Positions 2,815 through 56,079 of a DNA stretch of 64,000 nt are shown in pieces (the first letter of the stretch is position 1; each line of letters begins with the position of its first letter). The notes beneath the pieces were generated by a model. That model did not search any database, was not told the DNA's origin, and saw only the letters and a list, made by a program, of their open reading frames with translations. The DNA is taken from IMG/VR virus record IMGVR_UViG_3300032236_000679, positions 59,006 through 123,005 of that record, one strand, 5' to 3'. The stretch is from a virus. The translations under genes and the position numbers were made by a program.

Positions 2815-2837
2815 ACTGATCCCTTTACGGGATCAGT
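2815..2837. terminator. Perfect 9-bp inverted repeat
   Basis: ACTGATCCC and GGGATCAGT are separated by 5 nt, a perfect 9-bp stem. It lies between the end of the rightward gp26/51 gene and the leftward PP-loop gene. It could be a bidirectional terminator or the first helix of a structured RNA. No T-tract of the usual kind flanks it. Confidence 0.5.
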
Positions 2838-2879
2838 GACAAAGAAACTTTTGTTGAGTTCTCCGTCATACTGTAGAAA

Positions 2880-3125: not shown

Positions 3126-3147
3126 AGTTCAATTATATATCTTTTTG

Positions 3148-7430: not shown

Positions 7431-7468
7431 TGATATTACTTTACATTAAGTTATTGGATAAATCTATA

Positions 7469-37075: not shown

Positions 37076-37083
37076 TATAAATA
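37076..37083 (+). promoter_or_regulatory. T4-type late promoter TATAAATA
   Basis: A perfect TATAAATA in the 47-nt gap between two fibre-like genes, 22 nt before the ATG at 37105. Confidence 0.75.
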
Positions 37084-37104: not shown

Positions 37105-39207
37105 ATGACTTATTCTATATATAACACGTCAAGTAGTGCAACATATACAATTACCGATGGAACAGTAAACATAGATACTGATCTTGGGCTTGTAGGTAAG
37201 GGTTACCTAGGATATGGTCCTACGATTAATCGAAATTTCCTTCAATTGCTTGAAAATTTTAGTGGTGCTACTGCTCCAGCAAAGCCCATTAAAGGACAAC
37301 TTTGGTACGATAGCCTTAACCAAGCAGTTAAGGTTTATAACGGTACTAGTTTTAGTGCAATTAGTGGTTCATCACTTACTGCTACAAACATCTCATTAAA
37401 TGGTGATTTAACAGTTAGTGGAAATGCTACATTCTACGGTGCGGTTACTTTACCTGCACTATCAGGTCTTACTGTTAATGGAACAGCAAATATCACTAAT
37501 GTACGCGGTGCTTTGGCTGGTCCGTTTAATGGCACAGTTGGCGCAATTACGCCAAACACTGGTGCTTTCACAACACTAACAGGTACAAGCGGCACATTTA
37601 CTACTCTTACTGCTACTACAGGATATCAGGGCGCAGCAAACGGACCACTAAATGGTACTGTTGGTGCTACTACTCCTAATACTGGCGCATTTACTACACT
37701 ATCAGCATCTACTAGCATTACAGCAGGTACTATTGGTATCTGGGCAGGTAATGCAACAATTACTGGCGTTACACTATCTGGCGTCTCAGCAGGTGCAACT
37801 GGTCCTCTCTTAGGTCCACATAACGGTACAGTTGGCGCAACTACTCCAAACACAGGCGCATTTACAACACTAACAGCAACTGGTACTTCCAATTTTGCAG
37901 GTACATTAAATGCTGCTACTGTAAACGCATTGAACATTGGTAATACTGGCGCAACATTTACTGGTACATTGAACGGCCCAGTCAACGGTCCATTTAACGG
38001 TACAGTTGGTGCAACTACTCCTAACACTGGTGCATTTACTACACTATCAGCAACAAATAGCATTGTAGTTGGTACATTGGGCATTTGGGCAGGTAACGCA
38101 ACAATTACTGGCGTTACACTATCTGGCGTATCTGCTGGTGCAACTGGCGTATTGAATGGTCCACATAATGGTACAGTTGGTGGTATTACACCTAATACTG
38201 GCGCATTTACTACACTTACTGCATCCACTAGTATCTCAGCAGGTACTATACAATTATGGGCTGGTAATAATACTATTACAGGTGCTACAATTTCTGGCCA
38301 GTCAAGCGGCGCAACAGGAACATTGCTAGGTCCACATAACGGTACAGTTGGTGCAACTACTCCAAACACAGGCGCATTTACAACACTGACAGCAACTAGC
38401 GGTTATCAGGGCGCAACAAGTGGCGATCATAATGGTACAGTTGGTGCAACTGTTGCTAACACAGGTTCATTTACTACGCTAGTAACTTCAGGAACTATTG
38501 CTTCAACTGGTAATATTGTTGCATTGGCAACTACATCATCAACTAGTGCAACAACTGGTTCATTGGTAGTTAGAGGTGGTGCAGGTATTGCAGGCGATAT
38601 CTACTGTGCAGGTACAATTTACGGTACTGTAAGTGGTAGTATCACAGTTAATAGAATTAATAACACTCCAATTGGTGACGTGACTCCTTCAACTGGTGGA
38701 TTTACTGTACTCACTGTTAATACAAATAGTGCTGCTGTAGCAATTGTTAATGGCGGAACTAACGGCATTGGTGATATTGGTACTAATGTTAAGTCATTTA
38801 ACACTATCTACGCTAAAGCATCAACTGCTGCATATGCTGACTTGGCAGAAATGTACGTGGCAGATGCTACTTATGAGCCTGGTACTGTTCTAGACTTTGG
38901 CGGTGCTGAAGAAGTAACAGTTAGTTCAAATGTTCGCAGCAAGAGAGTTGCAGGCGTTGTATCAACTCAGCCAGCATATTTGATGAATAGCCAAGCAAAA
39001 GGCGAGTTTGTAGTTGCTGTTGCGCTAACTGGTCGTGTACCTTGTAAGGTACGTGGTCCTGTTGCAAAGGGTGACTTACTTGTATCAGCAGGCGAAGGTT
39101 ATGCAATGGTAGATAACGATGCAGTTGCTGGTACTATTATTGGTAAAGCAGTACAAACTAACGCTGATGGCGACGGTGTCGTTGATGTTGTTGTAGGACG
39201 TTTTTAA
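37105..39207 (+). CDS. Repetitive tail-fibre protein
   Basis: A 700-residue protein. The N-terminal anchor resembles the previous gene (LVGKGYLGYGPTINRNFLQL, KGQLWYDSLNQAVKVYNG). The middle has seven copies of GTVGxxTPNTGAFTTL, plus one degenerate copy, interleaved with AGTIGIWAGNATITG-type segments; this predicts a repetitive beta fibre shaft. The C-terminal domain begins near KSFNTIYAKASTAAYADLAE and includes DLAEMYVAD, followed by a hydrophobic beta region (GRVPCKVRGPVAKGDLLVSA). The same type of tip is found in many marine phage fibres next to a peptidase S74-like region, but I see no clear chaperone catalytic Ser/Lys pair. Confidence 0.75.
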   Translation: MTYSIYNTSSSATYTITDGTVNIDTDLGLVGKGYLGYGPTINRNFLQLLENFSGATAPAKPIKGQLWYDSLNQAVKVYNGTSFSAISGSSLTATNISLNGDLTVSGNATFYGAVTLPALSGLTVNGTANITNVRGALAGPFNGTVGAITPNTGAFTTLTGTSGTFTTLTATTGYQGAANGPLNGTVGATTPNTGAFTTLSASTSITAGTIGIWAGNATITGVTLSGVSAGATGPLLGPHNGTVGATTPNTGAFTTLTATGTSNFAGTLNAATVNALNIGNTGATFTGTLNGPVNGPFNGTVGATTPNTGAFTTLSATNSIVVGTLGIWAGNATITGVTLSGVSAGATGVLNGPHNGTVGGITPNTGAFTTLTASTSISAGTIQLWAGNNTITGATISGQSSGATGTLLGPHNGTVGATTPNTGAFTTLTATSGYQGATSGDHNGTVGATVANTGSFTTLVTSGTIASTGNIVALATTSSTSATTGSLVVRGGAGIAGDIYCAGTIYGTVSGSITVNRINNTPIGDVTPSTGGFTVLTVNTNSAAVAIVNGGTNGIGDIGTNVKSFNTIYAKASTAAYADLAEMYVADATYEPGTVLDFGGAEEVTVSSNVRSKRVAGVVSTQPAYLMNSQAKGEFVVAVALTGRVPCKVRGPVAKGDLLVSAGEGYAMVDNDAVAGTIIGKAVQTNADGDGVVDVVVGRF

Positions 39208-39245: not shown

Positions 39246-40151
39246 ATGACATATTCGTCAGGTGGATTAATTCAAGCAACGGATTACAATACAAGAGCAT
39301 CCAATATCAATGATATTTGGGGTGTTGGATCCGGCTCTAATGGATATGGACAGAGTACTACTTTATCAACTGTAGCAAGTGCAGGTACTGTTACTGCTAC
39401 ACAATGGGCCACACTCGTTAATCGTTTAGAATCTATTACACAACATCAAACTGGCGTAACTACCGGCATTAGTGCTCCAACTTCTGGATCAACTGTTACA
39501 TTTTTATCCACACTGGATACTAAGTTAGCAGCAATTGTTACTAATAAATTTTCTGCTGCAACTAGAGGGTCACTTGTAGGTGGATCTGGTTCGATTTCTT
39601 CATTTGCTTGGACTACCAGTTGTACTAGAGAATATTATTGGACTTTTTCAGATCTTAATACTGTTCGATATTTCTTTAATGCTGGTGGGTTACTTAACAT
39701 GTATATGAGAGTCCTTTCTGGTACAACTACAAAATCTACTGATTGGGACAGTTTTTTAACTAATCAAATTGGAACAATCTCATTAGGCAGTAACCTTTGC
39801 TCACGTACTGGAACTGGTGGCGATAATTTAACTCAAAATACCAGTACTGGCTACTATAATTTAACTTCTACTTATCAAACACTTTTCAATATTGGATCAA
39901 CAAGTGCTACTGCTGACTATGGAAACAACTATGCAGTAATTGAAGCAAAATTAGGCGGTGCATTGGGAGGCGCAGGTTCCAATGTTGTTTATATGAGATT
40001 TACATTATACGATATTGCTGCTGATATTATCAATGATACTGTTGACGGGACAACAGGTTCTTATAATTCTTATACTCCTCCAGAAACAACTTACTTAACA
40101 AATACTTGGGGCACTCCGACTGTTACTGCTGGAACATTGTCACAAAGTTAA
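39246..40151 (+). CDS. Putative structural protein, tail-fibre region
   Basis: A 301-residue protein starting MTYSSGGLIQATDYN, preceded by AGAAGA. It is rich in Ser, Thr, Gly, Asn and Tyr and mostly beta in character. The segments SRASN-like NTRASNINDIWG and TATQWATLVNRLESI resemble a recurring family of phage virion proteins. No catalytic motif is seen. It is the last gene of the late structural block: an early-type promoter starts immediately after its stop. It could be a fibre tip or head/tail decoration. Confidence 0.5.
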   Translation: MTYSSGGLIQATDYNTRASNINDIWGVGSGSNGYGQSTTLSTVASAGTVTATQWATLVNRLESITQHQTGVTTGISAPTSGSTVTFLSTLDTKLAAIVTNKFSAATRGSLVGGSGSISSFAWTTSCTREYYWTFSDLNTVRYFFNAGGLLNMYMRVLSGTTTKSTDWDSFLTNQIGTISLGSNLCSRTGTGGDNLTQNTSTGYYNLTSTYQTLFNIGSTSATADYGNNYAVIEAKLGGALGGAGSNVVYMRFTLYDIAADIINDTVDGTTGSYNSYTPPETTYLTNTWGTPTVTAGTLSQS

Positions 40152-40188: not shown

Positions 40189-40509
40189 ATGGACATTGAC
40201 GAACTTAAAAATCAAGCACAACTAAGTTATGATCATGCTGTAGGTAAGAAAAACCTACAGCAACGAATGGAATCACGACTTAATGTTGCATACAATGGCG
40301 GCTTCTTTACAGTAACAAAAGAACAGATAAACTTTCTTGATCTACTTGGTTCTCAAGAAGTAGTATTACTTGATGATTATCAAACTCCCGTAAAAGTAAA
40401 TGCATTTGAATTACTGAAAATTATGTTTGCACGTTATCATGAAATTATGAATGAATGGCTTTTTGAATGGGAAGAACTAAAGAAAGTTAGGTCTGCAAAG
40501 AATGTCTAA
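40189..40509 (+). CDS. Small conserved phage protein, function unknown
   Basis: A 106-residue, mainly helical protein: MDIDELKNQAQLSYDHA at the start and FYHEIMNEW-like ARYHEIMNEWLFEWEELKKV near the end. The C-terminus ends by overlapping the next ATG by 8 nt. It is the first gene behind the promoter at 40154, and a transcript from there would have almost no leader. No domain is recognised. Its position suggests an early function within the modification island. Confidence 0.65.
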   Translation: MDIDELKNQAQLSYDHAVGKKNLQQRMESRLNVAYNGGFFTVTKEQINFLDLLGSQEVVLLDDYQTPVKVNAFELLKIMFARYHEIMNEWLFEWEELKKVRSAKNV

Positions 40510-41299
40510 TACAGGCGCTGTTATTATTGCTAATAATACAGATAACTTTGACTATATCAAACTAGCAGAAGTTGCAGCAACTAAAATTAAAATAAATCTA
40601 GGTATTCCAGTTGCTTTAATAACAGGTTCTGATATTGAATCTGATATATTTGATAAGATCATTCAACTTGATCCAAAAGAAACTAATAAAAGATACATTA
40701 GAGAATATGCAGGACATGTTTCATGGCTTAACATGGATAGAACTGCTGTTTATGATCTAACTCCTTGGGATAGAACACTGCTGATAGATGCAGATTTCTT
40801 TGTGCATACTGATGCATTGAAAAATCATCTGCTATCTACAGCAGACTTTGCCATTGCAAGAAAGTTATATGATCCAACAACTGGTAACGATTATGTTTTG
40901 AAACTGGGAAAAAGCCAAATTGATCAGCGGTGGGCTACTGTAATGATCTTTAATAAGTCTACAGTTGCTAAATCAATATTTGAAATGGCAAAGCATGTGT
41001 TTGATCATTGGTATTACTATCATAAACTTTATAACTTTAACTTTGCCCCATATAGAAATGATTATGCATTTACTATTGCTTGTCACTTGTTAGGCGGATA
41101 TGGTACTACAGATTTTGACATATCAAATTATACAATGCCTAATTGTGATTTCAACACACGAATAAATCAACTGAACATGGAAAATATTTTAATATCTTAC
41201 GATAAGATAGTGAACACACAGCCTAAAACTTTTGTTCAACGTATAAAGACAGATGTTCACGTACAAAATAAAGCAAGTTTGTTTGGATGTTTATCATGA
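40502..41299 (+). CDS. Glycosyltransferase-like protein with DxD motif
   Basis: A 265-residue protein with a GT-A-like layout: N-terminal AVIIANNTDNFDYIKLAEVA, LGIPVALITGSD, then the metal/sugar-nucleotide motif TLLIDADFFV. A WATVMIFN segment and a C-terminal basic region follow. GT-A enzymes transfer a sugar from a nucleotide donor onto glycans, protein or DNA. It overlaps both neighbours and is a distant paralogue of the following gene. The acceptor is unknown. Confidence 0.65.
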   Translation: MSNTGAVIIANNTDNFDYIKLAEVAATKIKINLGIPVALITGSDIESDIFDKIIQLDPKETNKRYIREYAGHVSWLNMDRTAVYDLTPWDRTLLIDADFFVHTDALKNHLLSTADFAIARKLYDPTTGNDYVLKLGKSQIDQRWATVMIFNKSTVAKSIFEMAKHVFDHWYYYHKLYNFNFAPYRNDYAFTIACHLLGGYGTTDFDISNYTMPNCDFNTRINQLNMENILISYDKIVNTQPKTFVQRIKTDVHVQNKASLFGCLS

Positions 41300-42111
41300 C
41301 ACAGGGATTCGTTACTATTGCTTGTAACACAGTAGATATTAACTATCTCGAACATGCATATCAACTTGCTGTTAGTATTAAAGATACACAGAAACAAGTC
41401 ACTGACATTTCAGTTATTGTCAATGACAGTGCAACTGCATTGATTGAAGATAGACATACAAAGATATTTGATAAGATCATTCCAGTCTTTACAGGCAAGT
41501 TAAATCTACGTAAGACCTACAGTCCTGAATATAAAGTTTGTTTCCTCACTCCATATGAACAGACTATCAAAATTGAATCTGACATGATACTGACTTCTAA
41601 TATTGATCATTGGTGGCCAATATTAGATGAGAAAGACATTGTATTAACTGATAAAGTAATGACTTACTGGGGTGAGGTTGTAACTGATAGAAGTCAGCGT
41701 AAGATATTTGACGACAATGATTTGCCAGATGTTTATAGCGGCTTATATTACGTTAGACCAAACGAAGAATCGCATAGATTTTTTGATATTGTCACAGCAA
41801 TCTTTAAGAACTGGCTATGGTTTAGAGATCATTATCTGAAGAATTGTAGATATGAGCAGCCTGTTACAGATGAAGTATTTGCTATTGCTGCAAAGATATA
41901 TGGTGTTGAACGGTGTACTTTAAATAAAGCAAGTATTCCTACATTTGTTCATATGAAGAATACACTACAAAAGATCCCAAAAGATGACAGTTGGTATCGT
42001 TATGTAGACTTTGAACAACGTAATAGCAATACATCTATTGGATATTTTAATCAACTATATCCATTGCATTATCATGATAAAACATTTTTGGATAAACTAA
42101 CAAATGACTGA
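41296..42111 (+). CDS. Glycosyltransferase-like protein, paralogue of the previous gene
   Basis: A 271-residue protein from ATG 41296, chosen because it overlaps the upstream stop as ATGA; an in-frame ATG at 41287 is an alternative. It starts MTQGFVTIACNTVDINYLEH and has KIESDMIL in the place of the DxD motif, so the motif is ExD. SGLYYVRPNEESHRFFDIV and a His/Tyr-rich end follow. The organisation parallels the upstream gene, suggesting duplication. It may act in the same glycan pathway; activity with an altered metal motif is unproven. Confidence 0.6.
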   Translation: MTQGFVTIACNTVDINYLEHAYQLAVSIKDTQKQVTDISVIVNDSATALIEDRHTKIFDKIIPVFTGKLNLRKTYSPEYKVCFLTPYEQTIKIESDMILTSNIDHWWPILDEKDIVLTDKVMTYWGEVVTDRSQRKIFDDNDLPDVYSGLYYVRPNEESHRFFDIVTAIFKNWLWFRDHYLKNCRYEQPVTDEVFAIAAKIYGVERCTLNKASIPTFVHMKNTLQKIPKDDSWYRYVDFEQRNSNTSIGYFNQLYPLHYHDKTFLDKLTND

Positions 42112-42469
42112 AGAAGAATTTTTAAATGAAATTTTCAAACATGTTGTTCTATTAGAATCCAAACCTATAGAATACAGAATCTATTACAATAAAGATACTG
42201 GTAGCATTATATGCTATAGTCAAGAAGACTTAGCGGGTGATTATATTCTAGTTACTGAACAAGAATATATGAATTTTAATACAGAAATTTTTATTGTTGA
42301 AGACGGAAAATTAGTTAGAAAAGACATCTACATACAAAACAAACTACAGGTGCAGAAAGAAGAGTTTAAGAATTCAATTAGAACATTTGCATCTATTAAG
42401 AATGATAAACAATTTGCAGTAGATAGTGAATATACTAACCCAACTGATATTTGGAATTTAAATGAGTGA
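42104..42469 (+). CDS. Hypothetical protein between glycosyltransferase genes
   Basis: A 121-residue protein with 8-nt overlaps at both ends. It starts MTEEEFLNEIFKHVVLLESK, then shows YNKDTGSIICYSQEDLAG and YILVTEQEYMNFN, and ends with a charged helix and NPTDIWNLNE. No family is recognised. Tight coupling on both sides indicates that it belongs to the island. Confidence 0.6.
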   Translation: MTEEEFLNEIFKHVVLLESKPIEYRIYYNKDTGSIICYSQEDLAGDYILVTEQEYMNFNTEIFIVEDGKLVRKDIYIQNKLQVQKEEFKNSIRTFASIKNDKQFAVDSEYTNPTDIWNLNE

Positions 42470-43406
42470 TACAATTGACATAAGTGAAATTGATTGTGTT
42501 TATCTAAGTTATGATGAACCACGTGCTGATGAGTTTTGGGCAAAGATACAGAGTCAAGTACCGTGGGCTAAACGTGTACACAATGTAAAAGGTAGCGATG
42601 CTGCTCATAAAGCCGCTGCCGCTGCCAGTGATACCGAACGCTTTATTCTTATCGACGGTGATAACTTACCAAATTGGGAATTCTTTAATCAACAGTTACG
42701 CATAACTGAAATAAACAAGGAAAGTGTATTCCGTTGGAGAGCCATTAACGAAATTAATGGTCTCACTTATGGTAATGGTGGCATTAGTTGTTGGACTCGT
42801 GACTTCATCAACACGATGCGTACACATGAATCAACTGATGGCAGCGATGACACAGTAGTTGAATTCTGTTTTGATAATCGTTACTGGGCAATGCATGATG
42901 TTTGGAGTTACACATATCCAAATCAAAGTCAGTATCATGCTTGGCGTGCAGGATTTAGAGAGGGTGTTAAAATGTGTTTGGATCAAGGACGCAGACCAAC
43001 ACCCGAAGAATTTGACACTGCGGTTTGGTATGGCAACAAGTTTAGTCTGGAAGTTTGGTGTACTCTAGGCAGAGATGTTGAGTATGGCGAATGGGCGATA
43101 TATGGTGCTAGATATGGTGCATATAAGTGTATGTTCGAGGACAGTTGGGATTATACTGAAGTAAGAGATTTTGACAAATTGAATGAAATATATCAAAATA
43201 TTTTACCTAGCGAAGCAGAAAAGAACAGCGAATACCACGCTAGTATCTTGACAAATCGTCTTGGTTTAAATATAGTAGAAGTAACAGCCGATCAAAGTTC
43301 GTGGATTAAAAAGCACAACCAGCCTTGGAAGAACATTGATATCATGCTGCCAGAAAGAGATTATGTCAGAGTCATCAACGAAACCGCTAGACAACTCTGG
43401 CGATAA
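42462..43406 (+). CDS. Glycosyltransferase-like protein (SYDEP / DGDN family)
   Basis: A 314-residue protein. The N-terminal domain looks like a GT-A-type Rossmann half: DCVYLSYDEPRADEFWAKI, VPWAKRVHNVKGS, AHKAAAAASDTERFILIDGD, where DGD is a DxD-type motif. Further on are NGGISCWTRDFI and WRAGFREGVKMCLDQGRRPT. The same layout is repeated at the C-terminal end of the 1345-residue protein encoded at 50976 (LDVVFIHNGEKDSGVN... KAYQTAAELSSTDWFL... WRTAFRETVKLL). This ties the two genes to one family. The product overlaps the first radical SAM gene. Sugar donor and acceptor are unknown. Confidence 0.65.
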   Translation: MSDTIDISEIDCVYLSYDEPRADEFWAKIQSQVPWAKRVHNVKGSDAAHKAAAAASDTERFILIDGDNLPNWEFFNQQLRITEINKESVFRWRAINEINGLTYGNGGISCWTRDFINTMRTHESTDGSDDTVVEFCFDNRYWAMHDVWSYTYPNQSQYHAWRAGFREGVKMCLDQGRRPTPEEFDTAVWYGNKFSLEVWCTLGRDVEYGEWAIYGARYGAYKCMFEDSWDYTEVRDFDKLNEIYQNILPSEAEKNSEYHASILTNRLGLNIVEVTADQSSWIKKHNQPWKNIDIMLPERDYVRVINETARQLWR

Positions 43407-44805
43407 GAATACAGTAAATTCAGACGGAACACTAAACAGCGGGTTTATGTCGTCCGCTGAACAGATGAAAGAAAAGTTAGGACCAGCACTGTGTCTTGCT
43501 AAGTGGCAGCAGACCAGTCTACATCTAACTACAGGTCATACCAACAGTTGTTATCATCCACCCTTACACAAGATAGAGGTAACTGAACTTGAGAATAACC
43601 CCAGTGCGCTCCATAACACCCCTTACAAGAAGACCCAAAGACACAGGATGTTACGGGGAGAGAAGCCAGAAGAATGTTCATATTGCTGGCGTGCTGAAGC
43701 CACTGGAAACTTATCAGATAGACATTACAGGTCAGGGGAGCCCTGGGCGGCTGAGAGATTTGATGAGATTTTGGTTCAAGATCCCTTAACATGGAATGTG
43801 AATCCTGCTTATGTTGAAGTCAATTTTAGTAATATTTGTAATCTTAGATGTAGTTATTGCAGTCCTCAATTTAGTAGCACATGGGCACAGGAAATCAATC
43901 GACTGGGAGCGTATCCTACCAGTAGTAGACACAATGACCCTCGTCACTTTGTGGGCGAACGCAGTGTTATTCCTAATCGTGACACTAATCCATATGTTGA
44001 TGCTTTTTGGCGTTGGTGGCCCGAACTATATCCTCAACTAAAACATTTCCGTATGACTGGCGGCGAGCCAACTATGGATAAGAATACCTACAGGGTATTT
44101 GATTATGTGTTGGCAAATCCAAAGCCTGATCTACATCTTAATACAACCAGTAACTTCAGTCAGCAGCCTGCTGTATTTGACAAGTACATGGACTATATAA
44201 AGCGACTATGCGAAGGTGAGAACATAGAACACTTTATGCAATTCGTCAGTTTGGATACATGGGGTAAGCAAGCAGAATATATTCGTGATGGGATGGACTT
44301 TGATCTTGTTATTGCGAACGTAGAAAGATTTTTAACAGAAGTACCTTATCGCAATAGTCTTACTTTTATTATTACAATGAGTAATTTAGCCATTCCCAAT
44401 GTGCATAAGTTATTGGAACATATTTTAGAACTTAGACAAAAGCATAGCACAACATATCAACGTATATGGTTTGATACTCCAATTCTTCGTGAACCATTAT
44501 GGCAGACTCCGCGTGGCATGCCTGCTGCATATCAATTTAAACTTCAGCAAACAGTCGATTGGATGAAGACTTCATTAGAAACTTCTGATACACGTTTTAA
44601 AGGTTTTAAAGATTATGAAGTACAACGTCTACAGCGTGTAGTAGATCAAATGAATCCGCAACAGCATCAATTTGCTGATTGGGTCAAAGCAGATTTCTAT
44701 AAATTTTTTAACGAACATGATAAGCGCCGTGGCACTAATTTCCTCAAGACATTTCCTGAAATGAGTGAGTGGTATGACGAGTGCAAATATTGGGCAGAAA
44801 AATGA
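43363..44805 (+). CDS. Radical SAM protein 1 of 5
   Basis: A 480-residue protein from ATG 43363 (MSESSTK), preceded by AGAAAGAGA; in-frame ATGs at 43336 and 43447 are alternatives. The radical SAM cluster motif CNLRCSYC (CxxxCxxC) is near residues 159-166, and MTGGEPTM is the SAM-binding GGE motif. Upstream are extra cysteines (SCYHPP; CSYCWRAE), which probably form an auxiliary iron-sulfur site. This matches the twitch-domain radical SAM clade found in T4-like phages. It has closest visible similarity to protein 2. The reaction is unknown. Confidence 0.85.
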   Translation: MSESSTKPLDNSGDKNTVNSDGTLNSGFMSSAEQMKEKLGPALCLAKWQQTSLHLTTGHTNSCYHPPLHKIEVTELENNPSALHNTPYKKTQRHRMLRGEKPEECSYCWRAEATGNLSDRHYRSGEPWAAERFDEILVQDPLTWNVNPAYVEVNFSNICNLRCSYCSPQFSSTWAQEINRLGAYPTSSRHNDPRHFVGERSVIPNRDTNPYVDAFWRWWPELYPQLKHFRMTGGEPTMDKNTYRVFDYVLANPKPDLHLNTTSNFSQQPAVFDKYMDYIKRLCEGENIEHFMQFVSLDTWGKQAEYIRDGMDFDLVIANVERFLTEVPYRNSLTFIITMSNLAIPNVHKLLEHILELRQKHSTTYQRIWFDTPILREPLWQTPRGMPAAYQFKLQQTVDWMKTSLETSDTRFKGFKDYEVQRLQRVVDQMNPQQHQFADWVKADFYKFFNEHDKRRGTNFLKTFPEMSEWYDECKYWAEK

Positions 44806-46157
44806 CAAAAAGTAAACTTAAGGACGAAACTTTTCTAGAATATAAAAGACGTGTACTTGATACTAAGAGTGCAAGTTTCTGCGGAGCAAAATGGTACAAT
44901 GCAACTATTTGGCTTGGTAGTGGCATGACTACAAGTTGTCACCATCCTCTACCTCATAAAGTCTCTGTAGAAGAAGTTGTTGCAAATCCTCGTGCATTAC
45001 ATAATACGCCTCAGAAGAAAATGGAACGTCTTATGATGCAGAAAGGGCAACGTCCCAGTGGATGTGAATACTGTTGGAAAATTGAAGACAGTAGTCCAGA
45101 AGCCATCAGCGACAGACCTTATAAGTCAATGATATATACAGAACATGAACTGTGGTTTGCCAATGCGATTCCCAGTGACACAGATATTAATTTAAGAACT
45201 TTAGAGATAGCATTTGATCGTACATGTAACTTTGCTTGTAGTTATTGCAACCCTGCTTTCTCAACAACTTGGGCAAAGGATATAAAACAGAATGGACCTT
45301 ACAACAATCTTACTAGCGATGGTCGTAACCATTTTACTCATGAGCATGGTAGTAGCCAGCTTTATCGCGTGGGCGAAGAAAATCCGTACGTGGAAGCCTT
45401 CTTCAAATGGTGGGAATCAGATCTTAAAGACACCCTCCAAGAGCTTCGGATAACTGGCGGCGAACCAACTATGAGCGCAGACTTTTGGCGCTTGATTGAT
45501 TGGTTCAAAGATAATAAAAGTAATGTGAAACTTGCAATCAATAGTAATCTTGGTGCAAAGCAAGATTTAATTGATCGTCTAATTGCAGCAAGTCATGACA
45601 TCCCACACGTAGAACTCTATACCAGCTGCGAAGCAACAGGATTATCTGCTGAATATATTCGTGACGGTATGGTGTGGCGAGACTGGATTGACAATGTCAA
45701 CAGGTTGGTCGAAGAAGGGAACTTTAAAGCCCTACATGTCATGGCTACGATTAACGGACTTTGTTTGCCAACAATAACAGACTTCTTAGATCTTATTATG
45801 TTAAGCAAAGAACAGTATGGTCGTAATTGGCCCACTGTGACATTAAACATTCTTCGCTTTCCCAGTTTTCAAAGTCCTCTTGTATTGCCAGTTGAATATA
45901 GACAAACAGTAATTACAAAATTGCGTAAGTGGTATATGAAGAATGGAGAAAGTCCTTTACTGCATGAGATGGAACGTGAACATATTCTACGACTGATAAC
46001 TTATCTTGAATCTGTTGAAAGTCCACATGCTGGTGCAAGTGCCATTGAGGATTTACAGAAAGATTTTAAACATTTCTATACACAGTACGATCAACGTCGC
46101 AATAAGAACTTTGAAAAGACATTTCCTGAATTAAAGGCATGGTATAATGGCATATAA
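44802..46157 (+). CDS. Radical SAM protein 2 of 5
   Basis: A 451-residue protein from ATG 44802, which overlaps the upstream stop (ATGA); a GTG at 44781 is less likely. The cluster motif CNFACSYC is at about residues 142-149, followed by ITGGEPTM. The N-terminal half has CGAKW, SCHHPLPHK and CEYCWKIED, matching protein 1 segment for segment (CLAKW, SCYHPPLHK, CSYCWRAE). The C-terminus repeats FYTQYDQRRNKNFEKTFPEL, similar to FFNEHDKRRGTNFLKTFPEM in protein 1. Proteins 1 and 2 are clear tandem duplicates. Confidence 0.85.
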   Translation: MTKSKLKDETFLEYKRRVLDTKSASFCGAKWYNATIWLGSGMTTSCHHPLPHKVSVEEVVANPRALHNTPQKKMERLMMQKGQRPSGCEYCWKIEDSSPEAISDRPYKSMIYTEHELWFANAIPSDTDINLRTLEIAFDRTCNFACSYCNPAFSTTWAKDIKQNGPYNNLTSDGRNHFTHEHGSSQLYRVGEENPYVEAFFKWWESDLKDTLQELRITGGEPTMSADFWRLIDWFKDNKSNVKLAINSNLGAKQDLIDRLIAASHDIPHVELYTSCEATGLSAEYIRDGMVWRDWIDNVNRLVEEGNFKALHVMATINGLCLPTITDFLDLIMLSKEQYGRNWPTVTLNILRFPSFQSPLVLPVEYRQTVITKLRKWYMKNGESPLLHEMEREHILRLITYLESVESPHAGASAIEDLQKDFKHFYTQYDQRRNKNFEKTFPELKAWYNGI

Positions 46158-47454
46158 TTATAATGGTAAAGAGCCAATTAAAATAGCAGTTGATGATCTA
46201 AGTGACAAGCACAAGGATCTCATTTTTGAAAATAAAACATTCTGTATGCTGCCATGGATTCATCTGCATAGTTTTCCAACAGGGGAAGCATATCCCTGTT
46301 GTAATACAGAAATGAAATACAAAGTTGGTAACACCAATCAACAAAGCATTAAAGAAATTTGGGATGGAACTGAAATGCAAGACGTTAGAAAACGTATGCT
46401 TGCAGGCGAAAAAGTAGAAGGTTGTAGTCGTTGTTATGAGCAAGAAGATTCTGGGTTCTTCAGTATGAGACTCAGCAGTAACAAACACTTTGGACATCAT
46501 ATTGCATTAACAGATAATCCCACACCTGACATGAAACTTGTCTATTGGGATATTCGTTTTAGCAATTTGTGTAATTTACGTTGTCGTAGTTGTGGACATA
46601 TCTTCAGCAGTAATTGGTATGATGATCAAGCCAAATTAGTTGAAATGGAACATGGCAGTGGAGAGGGTTGGAAAAGTAGACATCAGCGTTTGTACTTTGC
46701 TGGGCGCAGTGAAGATGATATGTGGGATCAACTCAAAGATCAAATTGATAATCTTGAACAAGTTTATTTTGCAGGTGGCGAACCTCTTATTATGGAAGAG
46801 CATTATCGTCTTCTAAATGAATTAATTAAACGTGGTCGTACTGATGTTAGACTTATATACAACACTAACTTTACTGAACTTGCTTACAAGAAAACTAATG
46901 TGCTGAATTTATGGAAAGAATTCAAAAGTGTTAGTGTTGGTGCCAGTTTAGATGCTATGGGCATGAGAGCAGAATACATTCGTAAGAATTGTAATTGGAG
47001 CCAAATTGAACATAACAGAGAAGAAATGTTGCAGATATGTCCCAATGTAGATTTTTATATCAGTCCCACTGTCAGTATTATGAATGCATGGCATGTCAGT
47101 GATTTTCATCGTGCATGGGTTGATATGGGCTTACTAAAGCCGCAAGATTTAAACATTAACATATTGCAGGATCCTGCATATTTTAGAATTGATGTATTAT
47201 CTCAGAAGTTTAAAGAAGAGATAAAAGCAAAGTGGGAAGATCATCTCACATGGTTACGACCTTTAGATGGGTTGACACGTGCCACTACAGGATTTGAAAG
47301 TGCAATTAATTTTATGATGGCAGATGACAAGAGCCATTTACTTCCAAAATTTTGGGATCGCACTAATAAATTAGATAAGATACGTAATGAGTCGCTACTA
47401 GGCGCAATACCGGAGTTATATCATGAGCAAATTATGCATTCTACCATGGGTTAG
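46147..47454 (+). CDS. Radical SAM protein 3 of 5 (twitch-type)
   Basis: A 435-residue protein overlapping the previous stop by 11 nt. The N-terminus has the classic twitch/SPASM-like set MLPWIHLHSFPTGEAYPCCN, with CSRCYEQED following. The radical SAM motif CNLRCRSC is at residues 142-149, then FAGGEPLI. It ends in TAG (47452-47454), one of three TAG stops in the window, with an in-frame TGA two codons on. The next gene starts 32 nt before this stop. Confidence 0.88.
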   Translation: MAYNYNGKEPIKIAVDDLSDKHKDLIFENKTFCMLPWIHLHSFPTGEAYPCCNTEMKYKVGNTNQQSIKEIWDGTEMQDVRKRMLAGEKVEGCSRCYEQEDSGFFSMRLSSNKHFGHHIALTDNPTPDMKLVYWDIRFSNLCNLRCRSCGHIFSSNWYDDQAKLVEMEHGSGEGWKSRHQRLYFAGRSEDDMWDQLKDQIDNLEQVYFAGGEPLIMEEHYRLLNELIKRGRTDVRLIYNTNFTELAYKKTNVLNLWKEFKSVSVGASLDAMGMRAEYIRKNCNWSQIEHNREEMLQICPNVDFYISPTVSIMNAWHVSDFHRAWVDMGLLKPQDLNINILQDPAYFRIDVLSQKFKEEIKAKWEDHLTWLRPLDGLTRATTGFESAINFMMADDKSHLLPKFWDRTNKLDKIRNESLLGAIPELYHEQIMHSTMG

Positions 47455-48601
47455 TGTTGAAACTAGTCCATTAGGAGAAATTAAACCCTGCTGTCTTGCT
47501 ATTGATCCAGTTGTTGATAACGATGGTAAAATTTTAAAACTTGCCAACAGTACATTAACTGAAGCATATAACAGTAATTATATGCGTGATCTCAGACAGA
47601 GTTTCTTAAACGGTGAAACTCCAGAGACCTGCAAGCGTTGCTGGGAAGAAGAAGATTCAGGCCGTACAAGCAAGCGTATGCACAGTTTAAATCGCCTTAA
47701 GAATCTTGTACAAGATGTTGATTTTACAGATGTCAACAGCAGTAATTTAATATTCCTTGATCTTAAACTTGGAAACATTTGCAATTTAAAATGTCGCATA
47801 TGCGGTAGTTACAGCAGCAGCAAATGGGCACAGGAAGAAATGGATATTCATCCAGGTAACGAAGTTGCACGTTCTAATCTTGTACAAGGCCGCTGGCCAC
47901 GCGAATCAAAAGAATTTTGGCAAGATCTAATAGATATGTTGCCAAATATTCGCTACATGGAATTCACAGGCGGCGAACCATTCTTAATTGATGAGCATTT
48001 TGATTTACTGGCTAAGGCAGTTGAATTGGGATATGCCAGCAACATTGAAATACATTATAATACTAATACAACTACAGTACCTAAACGCGGGTTAGAGTTA
48101 TGGCCACATTTTAAGATAGTTGAAATCGCATTCAGTATAGATGACATTGGTGAGCGATTTGAATACCAGCGTTATGGTGCAAAGTGGGACATTGCTCAAA
48201 AGAATTTGGAAATATTTAGACAACTAAGAAAAGAATCTCGAAATATCAAATTACAAATTTGTTTAACCATAAACATTCAAAATGTTTACTATCTAGATGA
48301 ATTAATCAATTGGGCTGTGATGCAGAAGTTTGATTATATCTATTTTAATATGCTACATGATATTTGGTACTTTAACATTAAGAATCTAACTCAACGTGCT
48401 AAAGATATGGTCACTGAAAAGTACGCTAACCTTAGTCTTCCTCATCAAGAAGAGTTTGATCGTTTAGTTACTTTTATGAATCAAGGTGAAGGTACTGATT
48501 GCGCCAAGTTAATTAAAATTTTAAAACAAAGTGATCAACAGCGTAATCAAAAATTCTCAGATCATCATCCTGAAATGGCATTGGCAATTGGTTATGAATG
48601 A
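47423..48601 (+). CDS. Radical SAM protein 4 of 5 (twitch-type)
   Basis: A 392-residue protein. The N-terminal CILPWVSVETSPLGEIKPCC and CKRCWEEED resemble protein 3; the cluster motif CNLKCRIC lies at about residues 120-127, then FTGGEPFL. It is a full-length copy with all cysteines. It overlaps the upstream gene by 32 nt, the longest overlap in the cluster, which implies strict co-expression. Confidence 0.88.
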   Translation: MSKLCILPWVSVETSPLGEIKPCCLAIDPVVDNDGKILKLANSTLTEAYNSNYMRDLRQSFLNGETPETCKRCWEEEDSGRTSKRMHSLNRLKNLVQDVDFTDVNSSNLIFLDLKLGNICNLKCRICGSYSSSKWAQEEMDIHPGNEVARSNLVQGRWPRESKEFWQDLIDMLPNIRYMEFTGGEPFLIDEHFDLLAKAVELGYASNIEIHYNTNTTTVPKRGLELWPHFKIVEIAFSIDDIGERFEYQRYGAKWDIAQKNLEIFRQLRKESRNIKLQICLTINIQNVYYLDELINWAVMQKFDYIYFNMLHDIWYFNIKNLTQRAKDMVTEKYANLSLPHQEEFDRLVTFMNQGEGTDCAKLIKILKQSDQQRNQKFSDHHPEMALAIGYE

Positions 48602-49895
48602 TTTCTGTCTTGCGCCGTGGACACATACTTACATAAGTCCTCAAGGTGAACGCAGACTTTGTTGCGCCAGTAGAGAACCTGCACAGAACTTTCGTCAGTA
48701 CATAGACACTGATGCAGGTACTGGTCAGTTTACACCACTGAGTCTTAAGTCATGGTGGAATAGTGAACATGTTAGAACAATACGCAGTAAGTGGCTTGCG
48801 GGTGAAATTCCCAGTGCTTGTGAAGTATGTGATAAGAAGTTGCTAAACACTGATGTCTACAAAGATTATTTTGGACACTTGTTTAAACATCTTAGACAAC
48901 AGGCAATAGATTCAACAGATTCTACTGGTTATACAACTATGGAACCTATCAGTTGGGACTATCGTTACAGTAACATTTGCAATTTCAAATGTCGTATGTG
49001 TGGAGACATGCTTAGTAGCAGTTGGGAAAGTGAAGTACTAAACAACCAAATGGTTGATTTGAACAATCCTAAAAATAATTGGTTACGACAAGATAATAGA
49101 CAACTTATAAAAGAATTTGTCAGTAATACAGTTGTTCCAGAGTTTATGGATGCTGTTGAAAATAAAAGCATTCGCGAAATATATTGGGTAGGTGGCGAAC
49201 CTTTATTATATCCGGAGCATTGGCGTGCAATGAATCGCATTGTTGAATTAAACTACGCAGACCAAGTGCGTGTGCGCTATAATACTAACTTAAGTCAAAT
49301 TAATTATAAAGGTAAGAATTTATATGATCTATTGGGAAAATTTAATAACTGGGAAATATGTGCTAGTCTCGATGGGACTGGAAGCGTTGGTGAATACATT
49401 CGCACTGGTCTTGTTTTTGACGACTGGTTGGCTAATTTTCAATTGGGCGTGGAATCGCAAAAACATCATCGTCAGATGCGTATTGACTTCACTCTCACTT
49501 TACCTGGCATGGTTGAATTGGTACGTATTGTATGTTTGGCTAATAGCCTTAGGGTTAACTTGCTTTCAAAGCTTATATTCTCTTTTTCAAACGATATACT
49601 TTTTAGTCCTCTAGCATTACCACGAGATATATTAATTCTATGGATTGAAAAGATACAGGAAGATATACGACCGCATATCACTGCACGTACTCAGTCAGCA
49701 TGGGATACATTAGAGCAACTTAAAACAAGAGCAACTTTTGAAGAAGAATATGGAATGGAATCTGCTGTTAGTGGCAGGAAAAAAGGTAAAGCCCATATAT
49801 TAAAGTTGGAATCTATTAGAAAAGATGCTAAATTAAACATGGAAGATATTCTAAGCGAGTATCAGCCAGCACTAGATTGGTGGAAAAGTATATGA
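48594..49895 (+). CDS. Radical SAM protein 5 of 5 (twitch-type)
   Basis: A 433-residue protein from ATG 48594 (MNDFCLAPWTHTYIS), overlapping the upstream stop by 8 nt; the frame also extends upstream to a GTG at 48531, which would break the family N-terminus. CLAPW, GERRLCCAS and CEVCDKK form the auxiliary cysteine set; CNFKCRMC is at about 129-136, and VGGEPLLY follows. It is the last of five consecutive copies. All retain the CxxxCxxC motif, so none looks like a pseudogene. Confidence 0.88.
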   Translation: MNDFCLAPWTHTYISPQGERRLCCASREPAQNFRQYIDTDAGTGQFTPLSLKSWWNSEHVRTIRSKWLAGEIPSACEVCDKKLLNTDVYKDYFGHLFKHLRQQAIDSTDSTGYTTMEPISWDYRYSNICNFKCRMCGDMLSSSWESEVLNNQMVDLNNPKNNWLRQDNRQLIKEFVSNTVVPEFMDAVENKSIREIYWVGGEPLLYPEHWRAMNRIVELNYADQVRVRYNTNLSQINYKGKNLYDLLGKFNNWEICASLDGTGSVGEYIRTGLVFDDWLANFQLGVESQKHHRQMRIDFTLTLPGMVELVRIVCLANSLRVNLLSKLIFSFSNDILFSPLALPRDILILWIEKIQEDIRPHITARTQSAWDTLEQLKTRATFEEEYGMESAVSGRKKGKAHILKLESIRKDAKLNMEDILSEYQPALDWWKSI

Positions 49896-50983
49896 CTGTA
49901 ATTGTCACTGTTAGAAATCCTGTAACTAAATCAGATTATTTACAACTCTATATTGAGCCAAATAGTTCAGAATTGGCACAGGATTGGCAATTGGCTCTTG
50001 CAAGAGAATTACAGAAGAAAAGTCCAATTGAGAAAAATTATTGTTGGCATGGATGGCCCGATAGTCAGCGTAATTTAGAATTTTTATGTGCTGAACTTAA
50101 CAAACATATTAAAAGATTAAATGAAAATCTAAAAGGATATAAGACAATTGATCTTATTGATCCATCTACAATCATGCTGCCATTAACTGGCATTAATGAA
50201 GATGGTAAACGTGGCGGCAGTGTAAATCACGATGTTATGAATCTAGTTCATAATCATTTTGAAATTTTACAGGGAACTGTTGGCAATATGAGTCATTGGT
50301 ATAAGGAAGCCAATCCTAAGACAAAATATAGCATTAGACAACTTAACAATCTATGTCATGAAATTGAAACTCTCTGCTTGAGTATTCGTAAGAAGTTTTA
50401 TACACCTGAATGGATTAGACCCAGTAGCATTGTAACTTTTCTAAATGCACAGCGATTTAGATTGAATGATATTCATAGACAGGGGTTCCTAACTAACAGT
50501 TATGATAGACGTTTTGGTTATATCTACATGCACTGGGCACAGATTGGTAAAACTCTTTACGAAGTATTTCGTGATGAAAATGGTGCAGACATAGATCAGG
50601 CAGTATGTGATGCAATAACTCATCTTGAATACTACAGTGGTGAGTTTGACATTGAATGGGGCAAAGATGTCACATATAATAACGATCAGCCTTGGCATAC
50701 TAAAGAAATGAATGCATTCAATGAATGGTTAATTCGTAATAGATTTAATCCTAAGGATCCTAATCTAAGTCTTGGCTATTTAGAAATTGGGCACATTGAT
50801 TTAAAGCGTAGTTTTGGCACAACAGATATGTTTAAGATTTGGGAAATTATGAATAACAGGCTTGATATCTACAGTATTGAATGTATGGGTAATACTGCTT
50901 ATTATGATTACAGTTGGGCTGATGATGATCACGAAGAAAAGCAAATTGAATTTTTAATTCCTGGCTACAAATCGCATGTATGA
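49892..50983 (+). CDS. Unknown protein coupled to the radical SAM cluster
   Basis: A 363-residue protein from ATG 49892 (ATGA overlap with the previous stop); a TTG at 49877 is less likely. It begins with a beta-strand (MTVIVTVRNP), then a helical region (WQLALARELQ, NLEFLCAELNKHIKRLNENL). SVNHDVMNLVHNHFEILQ and a His/Trp-rich middle follow (YIYMHWAQIGKTLYEVF). No known motif is recognised. Conserved acidic and histidine residues hint at metal binding, but this is speculative. It links the radical SAM block to the giant repeat protein, overlapping the latter by 8 nt. Confidence 0.6.
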   Translation: MTVIVTVRNPVTKSDYLQLYIEPNSSELAQDWQLALARELQKKSPIEKNYCWHGWPDSQRNLEFLCAELNKHIKRLNENLKGYKTIDLIDPSTIMLPLTGINEDGKRGGSVNHDVMNLVHNHFEILQGTVGNMSHWYKEANPKTKYSIRQLNNLCHEIETLCLSIRKKFYTPEWIRPSSIVTFLNAQRFRLNDIHRQGFLTNSYDRRFGYIYMHWAQIGKTLYEVFRDENGADIDQAVCDAITHLEYYSGEFDIEWGKDVTYNNDQPWHTKEMNAFNEWLIRNRFNPKDPNLSLGYLEIGHIDLKRSFGTTDMFKIWEIMNNRLDIYSIECMGNTAYYDYSWADDDHEEKQIEFLIPGYKSHV

Positions 50984-53900
50984 TACTTTTTACTTTGATA
51001 AAGATTTAGATAGGGCTAAACAACAGGCCATTATGGAAAGTCAAACCGAATATGCTTGGGTATTATACAAAGGTGTAGACTACAGCAACTTTGACTTGCG
51101 ATTTGTTCCAAGTAAATTTAAGAAATCTTATGCACATACTTGGGGAAGTCATAATAATCAAAATAGTCATACAACTTGGCTATTACCCATAGAACAAATT
51201 AGAAAAAATCAATCAGTTGAAATTGAACAACACGATATTGTACTGCCAGCAAAAAATATTTTAGGATGGCAGTGGATCACTGATAAAAGAATAGATTATA
51301 CCAATTTCAATTTCAATTGGCTTCCTGATGAGTGGGATTGGGATAAGAACCATGCCTTTACTATGAAAGGCACAACAAAGTTATCTTATACATTCTTGCA
51401 AAAAGAAGGTGCAGTAGAAACAGTTTATCATCCTGCAGAATTAGAGTTTATGTCTGACATAGTTGATGATGAATGGGTATGGGAAACTGATAGTCGTATT
51501 GATTATACAAATTTTGACTTTACTTGGCTACCTGATGCATGGGACATAGACAAAGTACACTGTTTCTGTATGCAAGGGCTAGAACAATTAAATTATACAC
51601 GTTTATACAACAGCAAGCACAAGCAAACTGAATCAAAATTTCATGCTACTAATCTAAAATTTAAGCCTAATGCTGCCGCAGACGAATGGGTATGGGAAAC
51701 TGATAGTCGTATTGATTATACAAATTTTGACTTTATTTGGCTACCTGATGCATGGGACATAAACAAGGAACATTGTTTTGTCATGCAGGGTACAACTCAA
51801 CTAAGTTATACTCGTTTATACAATGCAAAAGCGACTATTGTTGAAACAAAATATCATAAGTCTTCATTGACATTTAAGCCTAATGCTGCCGCAGACGAAT
51901 GGGTATGGGAAACTGATAGTCGTATTGATTATACAAATTTTGACTTTACTTGGCTACCTGACGCATTTGATCTCGATAAAGATCATTATTTTTGTATGGA
52001 TGGCTGTGAACAGTTAAGTTATACACGACTTTATAATACAAAGCACGAACGAACTGAATCAAAATATCATAAATCTAATTTAAGATTCCTTCCAGGATCT
52101 GCTACTGACGAATGGGTATGGGAAACTGACAGTCGTATTGATTATTCAAACTTTGATTTTAATTGGTTACCTAACGAATGGGATAAGGATAAAGTTCATT
52201 ACTTCTGTATGCGTGGATGTAAACAGTTAAGTTATACACGTTTAATTAACTTAAAGCATAAAAGCAAGGGTAACAAATATCATTCTGCTGATCTTATGTT
52301 TAAACCCGGTGCTGCCGCAGACGAATGGGTATGGGAAACTGACAGTCGTATTGATTACACAAACTTTGATTTTACTTGGCTCCCAGATGAATGGGATATG
52401 AATAAAGATCATCTTTTTTGCATGAACGGATTAACGCAATTAAGTTATACTCGCTTGTATAATAAAAAGAAAGAACGTGTAAGTAAGAAGTTTCATAAAT
52501 CAACGCTCAAGTTTAAGCCTAAGGCCGCCGCAGAAGAATGGATATGGGAAACTGATAGTCGTATTGATTACACAAACTTTGATTTTACTTGGCTTCCAGA
52601 TGCATTTGACTGTGATAAAGTGCATGAATTTTGTATGCGGGGAAAGGAACAACTTAGTTACACACGATTGTATAATGCTAAGTGTAAACAAATTGAATCA
52701 AAGTTTCATTCTGCTGATTTAGATTTTATTCCGGGTGCAGCCAAAGACGAATGGGTGTGGGAAACTGATAGTCGTATTGATTACAGCAAGTTTGACTTTA
52801 CTTGGTTGCCTGACGCATGGGACAGAGATAAAGATCACTATTTCTGTATGCGTGGTCTAGAACAATTAAGTTATACTCGCTTATACAACTCTAAATTCAA
52901 ACAGACAACTGCAAAATTTCATATGTCAACCCTTGAATTTAACCCTGGTGCTGCTAATGACGAATGGGTGTGGGAAAAAGATGAACGTATTGATTATACA
53001 GGCTTTGACTTTACTTGGCTTCCTGATGCATGGGAAAAAGAATATGCACACTGCTTCTGTATACAAGGCAAGGAGCAGTTAAGTTACACTAAGTTAATTA
53101 ATATTAAACATAATGTGCAGGGTAAGAACAAGTTTTATGAATCTAATTTACAGTTCATCGATAAAACATCTAAGTTTACCCGCGAAGAAATTGAACATAT
53201 TAGAGACTTGCCCGAATGGATTTGGGAAATTGATCGACGGATTGATTATACTAATTTCAATTTTGACTGGTTACCTGATGCATGGGAAAAGGAATATTCT
53301 CATTGGTTCTGTATGCAGGATAAAGAACAGTTAAGTTATACACGCTTAATTAATACAAAGCATAATGAAAAAGATAAGAATAAGTTTTATGCTGCCGATT
53401 TAAAATTTACGCAGCCAACAACTATCATTGAATGGCCTAACTTTGCTGAAGCAATGCTTACTGGAGATGATTGGTTTGATTGTTTAGTTAATTGGGTAGT
53501 ACAGCAAAACATCCAACAAGAATGGGTGTGGGTTGTTGACAGTAGAATTGATTATACAAAGTTTGATTTTAACTGGTTACCTGATCGTGATGGATTACCT
53601 TACATACATTGTTTTAGTATGCAAGGGCATGAAAAATTAAGTTATACATGGCTAGTGAACACTAACAGTTTGCGAGATAGACAATACAAATTTATTAAAA
53701 GCAATCTTAAATTTCTCAAACCACATGCTGATACTGTTGTATTAGATATGGGCTTTAACAATAATAATTTCGTACATTATCAAAAGAAACTACGTTTTAC
53801 CGGCACAATGGAAGCAATGTTATCCAGTGCTGTTAAACGTGCAACTAATGAATGGTTGCACGTAATCAGTACATGTTGCGATTATATGATGTTTGACTTT

Positions 53901-55013: not shown

Positions 55014-56079
55014 CTACTTCAACAACTTTCTCAACTTCTGCATCAGTCATATGCCAATGATTAGGCAAACTAATGCATCTACCTTTTAGATTAGATGCAT
55101 TTGGACAATAATCAACTTTTGTTTTATATGCAGTATAATGATGCAGAGGTTTATCGTAATGACTTGCAAATTCAATATTATGTAATGATAGGAAAGTTTT
55201 TAATACTTCAGGGTTGGTAGGAGCAATTTCAAAAACATAATTTGTATGAGTGCAGCAATAATTGCGATTTGGCATTTCAATTTTATCTTCAAGTTCTAAA
55301 CGATAGTACCAAGATATTTCACTTTTGCGACGCATATTATCATCAAAGTTTTGATATTTGACATTTAAAACTGCTGCTTGTACAGCGTCAATACGACAAT
55401 TAAGTCCTGGCTGTATAACATCTCCGTTGTGTTTACCTTGCACACAGAATGTTTTTAGTTGTTCAACTGTATAGTTTTTACTGACAATGGCACCTGCGTT
55501 ACCCATTGCCCCAAGATTCTTAAGAGGATTAAAACTAAGAGCAAGACTATCGCAGTAATCAATTTGATGAAAGTAATCATAAAACAATTCAAAACTCTGT
55601 GCCGCATCAACTATAAGTTTAACTTTATAATGATCGCACAATCTTTTAAATCTTGTTAGATCAACGCCTTGCCCATATAGATCAACTACAACTACTGCGC
55701 TGACATTTTTAAGTCTATCAAGATATTCTGCTAGCCGTGTAAAATCCATAAGCCAGCATTTATCGATATCGACAAAAGCAGGAATAAGTCCTGCGGCAAC
55801 AACCGCATTAGCAGTTGCTACATATGTCATTGCAGGAACAAGTACTGTACTACCTTTGGGTAAATTGGCAATTTGTAAAGCAGTAATAAGAGCATTAGTA
55901 CCTGAATTTGTAGCAACGCAACTGGCATTGTTATACAAACGACTGACTAAACTTTCAAATTCATCAACTGCTTCGTTAGCAAAATATTGTCCGCTTGTGG
56001 ACACAGTCATTATTGCATTTTGAATTTGATTGCGTTGATCTTCGTATTGCTCTTTTAAATTATAAAATTTAATAGACAT
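54997..56079 (-). CDS. DegT/DnrJ/EryC1-type PLP aminotransferase
   Basis: A 360-residue protein of the sugar aminotransferase (DegT/StrS) family. Motifs are the PLP-binding ATNSGTNALITALQ, VPAMTYVATANAVVAAGLIP, DLYGQGVD, and VDAAQSF with Asp158. The Schiff-base lysine is at SFNPLKNLG (Lys187). Such enzymes aminate keto-sugar nucleotides in surface-polysaccharide pathways. It is the last gene of the minus-strand operon, overlapping the epimerase gene by 11 nt. It ends in TAG with an in-frame TAA five codons later. Substrate unknown. Confidence 0.93.
   Translation of the reverse strand: MSIKFYNLKEQYEDQRNQIQNAIMTVSTSGQYFANEAVDEFESLVSRLYNNASCVATNSGTNALITALQIANLPKGSTVLVPAMTYVATANAVVAAGLIPAFVDIDKCWLMDFTRLAEYLDRLKNVSAVVVVDLYGQGVDLTRFKRLCDHYKVKLIVDAAQSFELFYDYFHQIDYCDSLALSFNPLKNLGAMGNAGAIVSKNYTVEQLKTFCVQGKHNGDVIQPGLNCRIDAVQAAVLNVKYQNFDDNMRRKSEISWYYRLELEDKIEMPNRNYCCTHTNYVFEIAPTNPEVLKTFLSLHNIEFASHYDKPLHHYTAYKTKVDYCPNASNLKGRCISLPNHWHMTDAEVEKVVEVVKFAV

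Follow-up and report, generated by a model that had tools for sequence, protein, structure and literature searches.

Several components of the locus described here are already known, namely the N_Twi family of radical S-adenosylmethionine (SAM) enzymes, glycosyltransferase clusters in phages, and T4-like phages rich in radical SAM genes (PMC5332604, PMC7029224). For example, the T4-like environmental genome TARA_ERS488813_N000010 carries 12 radical SAM genes together with an A-type iron-sulfur (Fe-S) carrier (PMC5332604), and the pelagimyophage host recognition cluster brings tail fibres, GT8 glycosyltransferases and radical SAM cassettes together in one structural region (PMC7029224). Here we analyse a stretch of 64,000 nucleotides (the window; positions 59,006 to 123,005 of IMG/VR record IMGVR_UViG_3300032236_000679), in which five successive radical SAM genes (rS1 to rS5) are followed by a partner gene, w368. 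The window closes the right-hand side of a viral contig of 123 kb, whose major head and portal genes are T4-like. The cassette to which they belong is common in aquatic phage metagenomes, from both lake and sea, and its order is nearly invariant. The set probably gives the phage tail, or else the surface of the host, a chemical coat of an unusual kind.

Five radical SAM genes and their partner

The array consists of five successive plus-strand open reading frames at 43363-49895, all full length and mutually overlapping, and w368 adjoins its last member:

43363..44805, + strand: rS1, N_Twi radical SAM protein with CxxxCxxC and with CxxKW, SCYHP and CxxC
44781..46157, + strand: rS2, N_Twi radical SAM protein with CxxxCxxC and with CxxKW, SCHHP and CxxC
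46147..47454, + strand: rS3, N_Twi radical SAM protein with CxxxCxxC and with CxxPW, CC and CxxC
47423..48601, + strand: rS4, N_Twi radical SAM protein, joined to rS3 in some phages
48594..49895, + strand: rS5, N_Twi radical SAM protein with one additional invariant Cys
49892..50983, + strand: w368, near-obligate partner with invariant H119, E123, C154-H155-E156 and E158

An earlier note on this DNA had claimed five successive overlapping radical SAM genes, and the proteins bear this out: rS1 to rS5 score 329, 302, 412, 363 and 285 bits, near the full length of the model, against NCBIfam NF033640 (N_Twi_rSAM, N-terminal twitch radical SAM), whose curated cut-off is 170 bits. The genes overlap by 25 nt (rS1/rS2), 11 nt (rS2/rS3), 32 nt (rS3/rS4) and 8 nt (rS4/rS5), and by 4 nt at rS5/w368 provided that w368 begins at the ATG at 49892, in agreement with the 4-32 nt given in that note. 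The GTG at 48531, listed as the start of rS5, is probably too early.

The cysteine motifs ascribed to all five copies stand in part. CxxxCxxC, GGEP and CxxC occur in every one of the proteins, and the radical SAM cluster cysteines are invariant within every orthologous group (63-76 sequences per group). The group alignments of rS3-rS5 hold the twitch cysteines CxxPW, CC and CxxC, but CxxPW and CC are missing from rS1 and rS2, which instead have CxxKW, C[Y/H]H and CxxC plus extra invariant histidines. Because a single Cys followed by Tyr or His takes the place of CC in rS1 and rS2, the ligands of their auxiliary cluster are predicted to differ. In a profile search of the PDB, the twitch region matched BtrN (E 4e-4), and further matches were to the peptide enzymes SkfB and YydG; Pfam gave SPASM domain matches in rS3-rS5. 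Scores against known radical SAM maturases of ribosomally synthesised and post-translationally modified peptides (RiPPs; PqqE, sactipeptide and ranthipeptide types) were far under the equivalog cut-offs. Prokaryotic viperin (NF038283, at most 30.5 bits against a cut-off of 180), the heme enzyme AhbD (16.7 bits against an equivalog cut-off of 500) and the pyrroloquinoline quinone (PQQ) enzyme PqqE (16.8 against 381) were rejected as identities.

For w368, whose confident AlphaFold model has a predicted local distance difference test score (pLDDT) of 92, no counterpart was found in the PDB by sequence or by fold, nor any match in 50,697 phage records. Its fold matches in BFVD are nine viral proteins, eight of them from uncultured viruses; profile searching did not bring back the fold match that BFVD gives in Atu_ph07. 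Outside viruses, a locus of a Bacteriovoracaceae metagenome-assembled genome (MAG; L107, 8493-10909) presents a minimal pair, in which a single rS1-like gene precedes a relative of w368, and this same MAG, G001, has nine N_Twi matches above the family cut-off.

Conservation and ancestry of the cassette

Upstream of the array lie GT1, GT2 and GT3, which are predicted glycosyltransferases or resemble them. The order GT1-GT2-GT3-rS1-rS2-rS3-rS4-rS5-w368 was found in 113 complete, non-redundant metagenomic viral cassettes, among which ends are lost at contig edges and a few have an extra copy of one member; the single exception in gene order is a cassette with w368 ahead of rS5. A scan seeded with rS1, independent of w368, found at least 588 relatives in IMG/VR contigs. 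Among the 80 best, 54 had at least 10.5 kb downstream, and these held rS2 (54), rS3 (54), rS4 (52), rS5 (53) and w368 (50), the shortfalls being fused genes or genes displaced past the end of the locus by insertions. With w368 as the seed, at least 497 relatives were found, and in the 80 best the array lies immediately upstream wherever the contig reaches far enough. Seeding with rS3 gave 16 viral loci, and all sufficiently long ones hold the five genes in order, except the distant L022.

A tree of 149 sequences recovers five clades, one for each array position, with support of 99-100, and shows the same division between proteins 1-2 and 3-5 that the earlier note had drawn; rS1 and rS2 group with bacterial relatives. 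On this phylogenetic evidence, the five paralogues are ancient orthologous groups and not recent duplicates. Chance as the origin of the array was rejected as well, given the tree, the gene order and the conserved cysteines. The ratio of nonsynonymous to synonymous substitution rates (dN/dS) is 0.04-0.15 for most measurable pairs, with one rS4 pair at 0.28, and selection on the array, as judged from these ratios, is purifying. In pairs whose other radical SAM genes share 78-93% identity (window, L007, L010, L012), rS4 is 57-59% identical, and this divergence in excess of that of its neighbours suggests allele exchange at rS4. Furthermore, rS3 and rS4 form one open frame in 13 loci from several phages (some loci redundant), and these fusions point to a coupling of the two, either physical or in sequence.

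Insertions occur mostly at the GT3/rS1, rS1/rS2, rS4/rS5 and w368/REP junctions (REP being the gene after w368), and the rS2-rS3-rS4 and rS5-w368 blocks remain tight across loci. Extra radical SAM genes are among the cargo, some with a C-terminal SPASM domain. Locus L014 has a NUMOD3 homing-endonuclease-type gene (2783-3412, minus strand) between rS4 and rS5, and L023 has a sixth radical SAM gene of the C-terminal type (6138-7163, plus strand), separated from the array by about 96 kb of their common contig. A still longer radical SAM array is found on a contig that reads as a T4-like marine phage with the layout fib1-fib2-GT1-GT2-GT3 (fib1 and fib2 are tail genes, see below); this contig, in a Rickettsiales-labelled MAG (L117-L118), is probably misbinned. 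The MAGs with the labels Rickettsiales (G003, contig C6) and Pacearchaeota (G002) were dropped as hosts, their contigs being read as phage.

All ten array-bearing contigs of at least 289 kb, with 6-14 N_Twi matches each, encode IscU and/or an A-type carrier (IscA), and neither was found in five cultured phage genomes searched from the phage collection (0/5). The link between the array and Fe-S supply is suggestive, for these largest contigs only. Since radical SAM enzymes make heavy demands on Fe-S clusters and reducing power, five conserved copies, together with the IscU and IscA genes of the ten largest contigs, point to a function both costly and important.

Genomic setting

The glycosyltransferase genes and the genes downstream of w368 are as follows:

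40502..41299, + strand: GT1, putative GT-A glycosyltransferase with invariant D96-x-D98
41287..42111, + strand: GT2, GT8-type glycogenin-like glycosyltransferase
42462..43406, + strand: GT3, GT-A-like protein with invariant DGDN in the alignment
50976..55013, + strand: REP, tandem 71-aa repeats (about 10-12 copies) with a GT3-like domain at the end
54997..56079, - strand: DegT/DnrJ/EryC1 sugar aminotransferase, in 26/36 broad-clade loci
56069..57013, - strand: NAD-dependent sugar epimerase/dehydratase, in 24/36 broad-clade loci

GT2 has a profile match to glycogenin-1 (E 2e-6) and an invariant D99 within an ExD motif. The AlphaFold model of GT3 (pLDDT 88.9) finds GT-A enzymes in Foldseek with probabilities of 0.9-1.0, and GT3 has no match in the 50,697 phage records. 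The terminal domain of REP aligns with GT3 (hhalign probability 99.8, E 2e-29) and lacks the DxD motif; its repeats are rich in Trp, Tyr and Cys, with many conserved aromatic residues, and its length across loci is mostly 402-1345 aa, compact phages having few repeats. Downstream of w368, a NodU-type carbamoyltransferase is found in 35 of the 36 broad-clade loci and DUF6071, which is SGNH-like by our reading of its GDSFTYG motif, in 25. The cargo inserted around the core is consistently sugar chemistry.

Upstream, the cassette adjoins the end of the tail genes:

37076..37083, + strand: T4-type late promoter -10 motif TATAAATA, 21 nt before fib1
37105..39207, + strand: fib1, tail/virion structural protein, its C-terminal domain homologous to PA5oct gp359
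39246..40151, + strand: fib2, last tail gene, homologue of PA5oct gp360
40189..40509, + strand: w106, small conserved protein

Upstream of GT1, fib2 is present in 61/61 loci and w106, which has no Pfam match, in 59/61. The capsid protein of the contig is closest to those of the jumbo T4-like phages Phosso, Vibrio 2.275.O and PA5oct. In the cultured PA5oct, gp359 is annotated 'ESI-MS/MS, virion structural protein' (ESI-MS/MS, electrospray ionisation tandem mass spectrometry) and gp360 is annotated ESI-MS/MS; the fib1 and fib2 homologues close its tail operon, and the cassette is absent after them. The motif TATAAATA before fib1 is a probable promoter of the transcription unit. It has 3 copies in the window against 9.4 expected, none of them between the copy before fib1 and the end of REP, and 2 against 38 expected in the core across 64 loci; these are first-order Markov expectations, which coding sequence may bias. 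Given the motif ahead of fib1 and its depletion inside the core, the cassette is probably transcribed late, as part of the unit that includes the tail genes.

The tail operon also contains a single ORF of 4978 residues (20503-35439, plus strand), and the matching position in PA5oct is taken by a virion structural gene of 11.6 kb. Elsewhere in the window, SbcC- and SbcD-like nuclease subunits are encoded at 5661-8482 (minus strand) and a DUF2201 putative metallopeptidase with a VWA-like domain at 61682-62941 (minus strand). A tRNA with a CUA anticodon (61602-61673, minus strand), reported as tRNA-Pyl, is a candidate amber suppressor. The stop codon is TAG in only 3 of the 41 window genes checked.

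Proposed function and alternatives

We suggest, at even chances, that the cassette is a late-expressed, tail-linked assembly line of jumbo T4-like phages which builds or remodels a glycan. In this reading its enzymes would work one after another on a single glycan carried by a tail protein, or on the precursor of that glycan. GT1-GT3 would place a short glycan on the tail protein, for which fib2 and fib1 are the nearest candidates. Each N_Twi enzyme would bind a radical SAM cluster and, in its N-terminal twitch domain, an auxiliary cluster, and would generate a 5'-deoxyadenosyl radical; successive steps on the glycan or sugar precursor might be dehydrogenation, epimerisation, deoxygenation or cross-linking. 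Alongside the last enzyme or enzymes, w368 may act as a substrate carrier or as a finishing enzyme, and REP, a degenerate repeat of the glycosyltransferase fold, may act as a scaffold. Optional cargo (carbamoyltransferase, SGNH-like protein, aminotransferase, epimerase and extra radical SAM enzymes) could diversify the final structure, as in serotype loci. What the sequence itself shows is a fixed order of genes that are inherited together and kept under purifying selection, with conserved Fe-S ligands, the rS3-rS4 fusions and sugar-chemistry genes all around. Also in favour of the proposal are the constant presence of fib2 upstream, the late promoter motif, the GT2 and GT3 matches, the frequent carbamoyltransferase and other sugar cargo, a bacterial rS1-like gene in a polysaccharide locus (G001, see below), the N_Twi and glycosyltransferase genes of Vibrio phage K566, the BtrN match of the twitch region, and IscU and/or IscA in the ten largest contigs. 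The earlier note had envisaged several distinct radical modifications accompanied by glycosyltransferases, which fits well with ancient, co-inherited and undecayed paralogues, the rS3-rS4 fusions, GT2 and GT3; the modifications would share one substrate class.

Several points weigh against a glycan substrate on the tail. Twitch and SPASM radical SAM enzymes modify peptides as often as sugars. GT1 has no PDB sequence match, and its assignment is weaker than those of GT2 and GT3, while the fold matches of GT3 are weak by TM-score (about 0.3). The window's own contig has neither the carbamoyltransferase nor the SGNH-like gene, and these two are therefore not essential. The motif TATAAATA lies 18-25 nt ahead of an upstream gene in only about 10 of the 64 loci, partly because many loci stop short. 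Among 15 shorter contigs (96-219 kb), which may be fragments, IscU is found in 0/15 and IscA in 1/15.

Direct protein modification, by which fib1, fib2 or the REP repeats would acquire cross-links or epimerised or otherwise altered residues, with the glycosyltransferases acting separately, would account for the resemblance to SPASM/twitch RiPP maturases, with SPASM matches in rS3-rS5 and PDB matches to SkfB and YydG, as well as for the constant adjacency of fib2 and the conserved aromatic residues of REP. However, no precursor-peptide gene was found within the compact cassettes, whose overlapping genes leave no space for one, and PqqD/RRE domains have no Pfam match among the cassette genes tested. 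Moreover, REP varies widely in length, with few repeats in compact phages, and the inserted cargo is consistently sugar chemistry; we regard this alternative as unlikely. A similarly low probability attaches to remodelling of the host envelope, in which the lipopolysaccharide O-chain or the capsule would be rebuilt, blocking superinfection or sparing released virions from debris. The host-recognition clusters of pelagimyophages, in which glycosyltransferases accompany radical SAM cassettes, have been so interpreted (PMC7029224), a PagP-annotated gene lies near the N_Twi genes of Vibrio phage K566, and bacterial relatives are located in surface-polysaccharide loci: in bacterium G001 an rS1-like gene adjoins two glycosyltransferases and a carbamoyltransferase, and its neighbours are read, by inspection, as Wzm/Wzt-type polysaccharide exporter genes. 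Yet the phage cassettes show no gene recognisable as a polysaccharide exporter or ligase, and the location of the cassette behind the last tail genes, with a late-type promoter, suggests co-expression with virion proteins, which is late for superinfection exclusion.

Auxiliary metabolism, with a cofactor such as PQQ or heme made for the host, reflects labels given in virome surveys (PMC7678222, PMC9301287), but it is largely refuted by the wide margins by which the AhbD and PqqE cut-offs are missed and by the tail-operon linkage, and we consider it very improbable. The gain and loss of extra radical SAM genes between core genes might be taken to mean that the array is a set of recent tandem duplicates without coordinated function, or of decaying copies. 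This idea, with a negligible probability, is refuted by the five ancient supported clades, the invariant cluster cysteines, the mostly low dN/dS and the fixed order; the scattered or decaying copies that the earlier note had named as contrary evidence were not seen. A more ambitious reading, which is possible but somewhat doubtful, is a rigidly conserved five-step viral assembly line with a partner of new fold, encoded by hundreds of large phages that are uncultured; it would make a structure of the virion or of a surface, using radical chemistry without parallel among known viral modifications.

Comparison with known systems

The five-gene core, its w368 partner, their order and their function were not found in the open literature searched; subscription journals lie mostly outside that search, and an earlier description is possible. 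The earlier note's remark that no known phage pathway accounts for the array holds within this literature, in which T4-like phages with multiple radical SAM genes had been noted before (PMC5332604, PMC7029224). The search gave no paper using the NF033640 family name and nothing relevant on phage radical SAM genes together with carbamoyltransferases. The cassette offers a first functional context for NF033640. It also opens a testable way into new chemistry of glycans or proteins, and into the means by which jumbo phages modify their own tails or the surfaces of their hosts.

With respect to NF033640 itself, all five proteins lie far above the curated cut-off; however, the model is a subfamily name without function, whereas in the phages five paralogous groups stand in a fixed array, and the cluster motif is changed in rS1 and rS2. 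BtrN is a twitch enzyme of aminoglycoside synthesis. A radical SAM core and a twitch domain are common to BtrN-type enzymes and the array, but the twitch domain is C-terminal in BtrN and N-terminal in rS1-rS5, and here there are five enzymes per set, encoded by a virus. The cultured Vibrio phage K566 likewise has N_Twi genes, in alternation with genes of the GT8 and GT4-like types, but lacks clear rS1-rS5 orthologues and w368, and only two of its genes exceed the family cut-off. TARA_ERS488813_N000010 shares the T4-like background and many radical SAM genes plus Fe-S assembly, whereas its description counts genes and discusses Fe-S assembly and does not describe an array, a partner or a substrate (PMC5332604). 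Finally, the pelagimyophage region is 'hypervariable', and its radical SAM genes differ between two genomes (PMC7029224), whereas here a rigid five-gene core and its partner are universal in the sampled clade.

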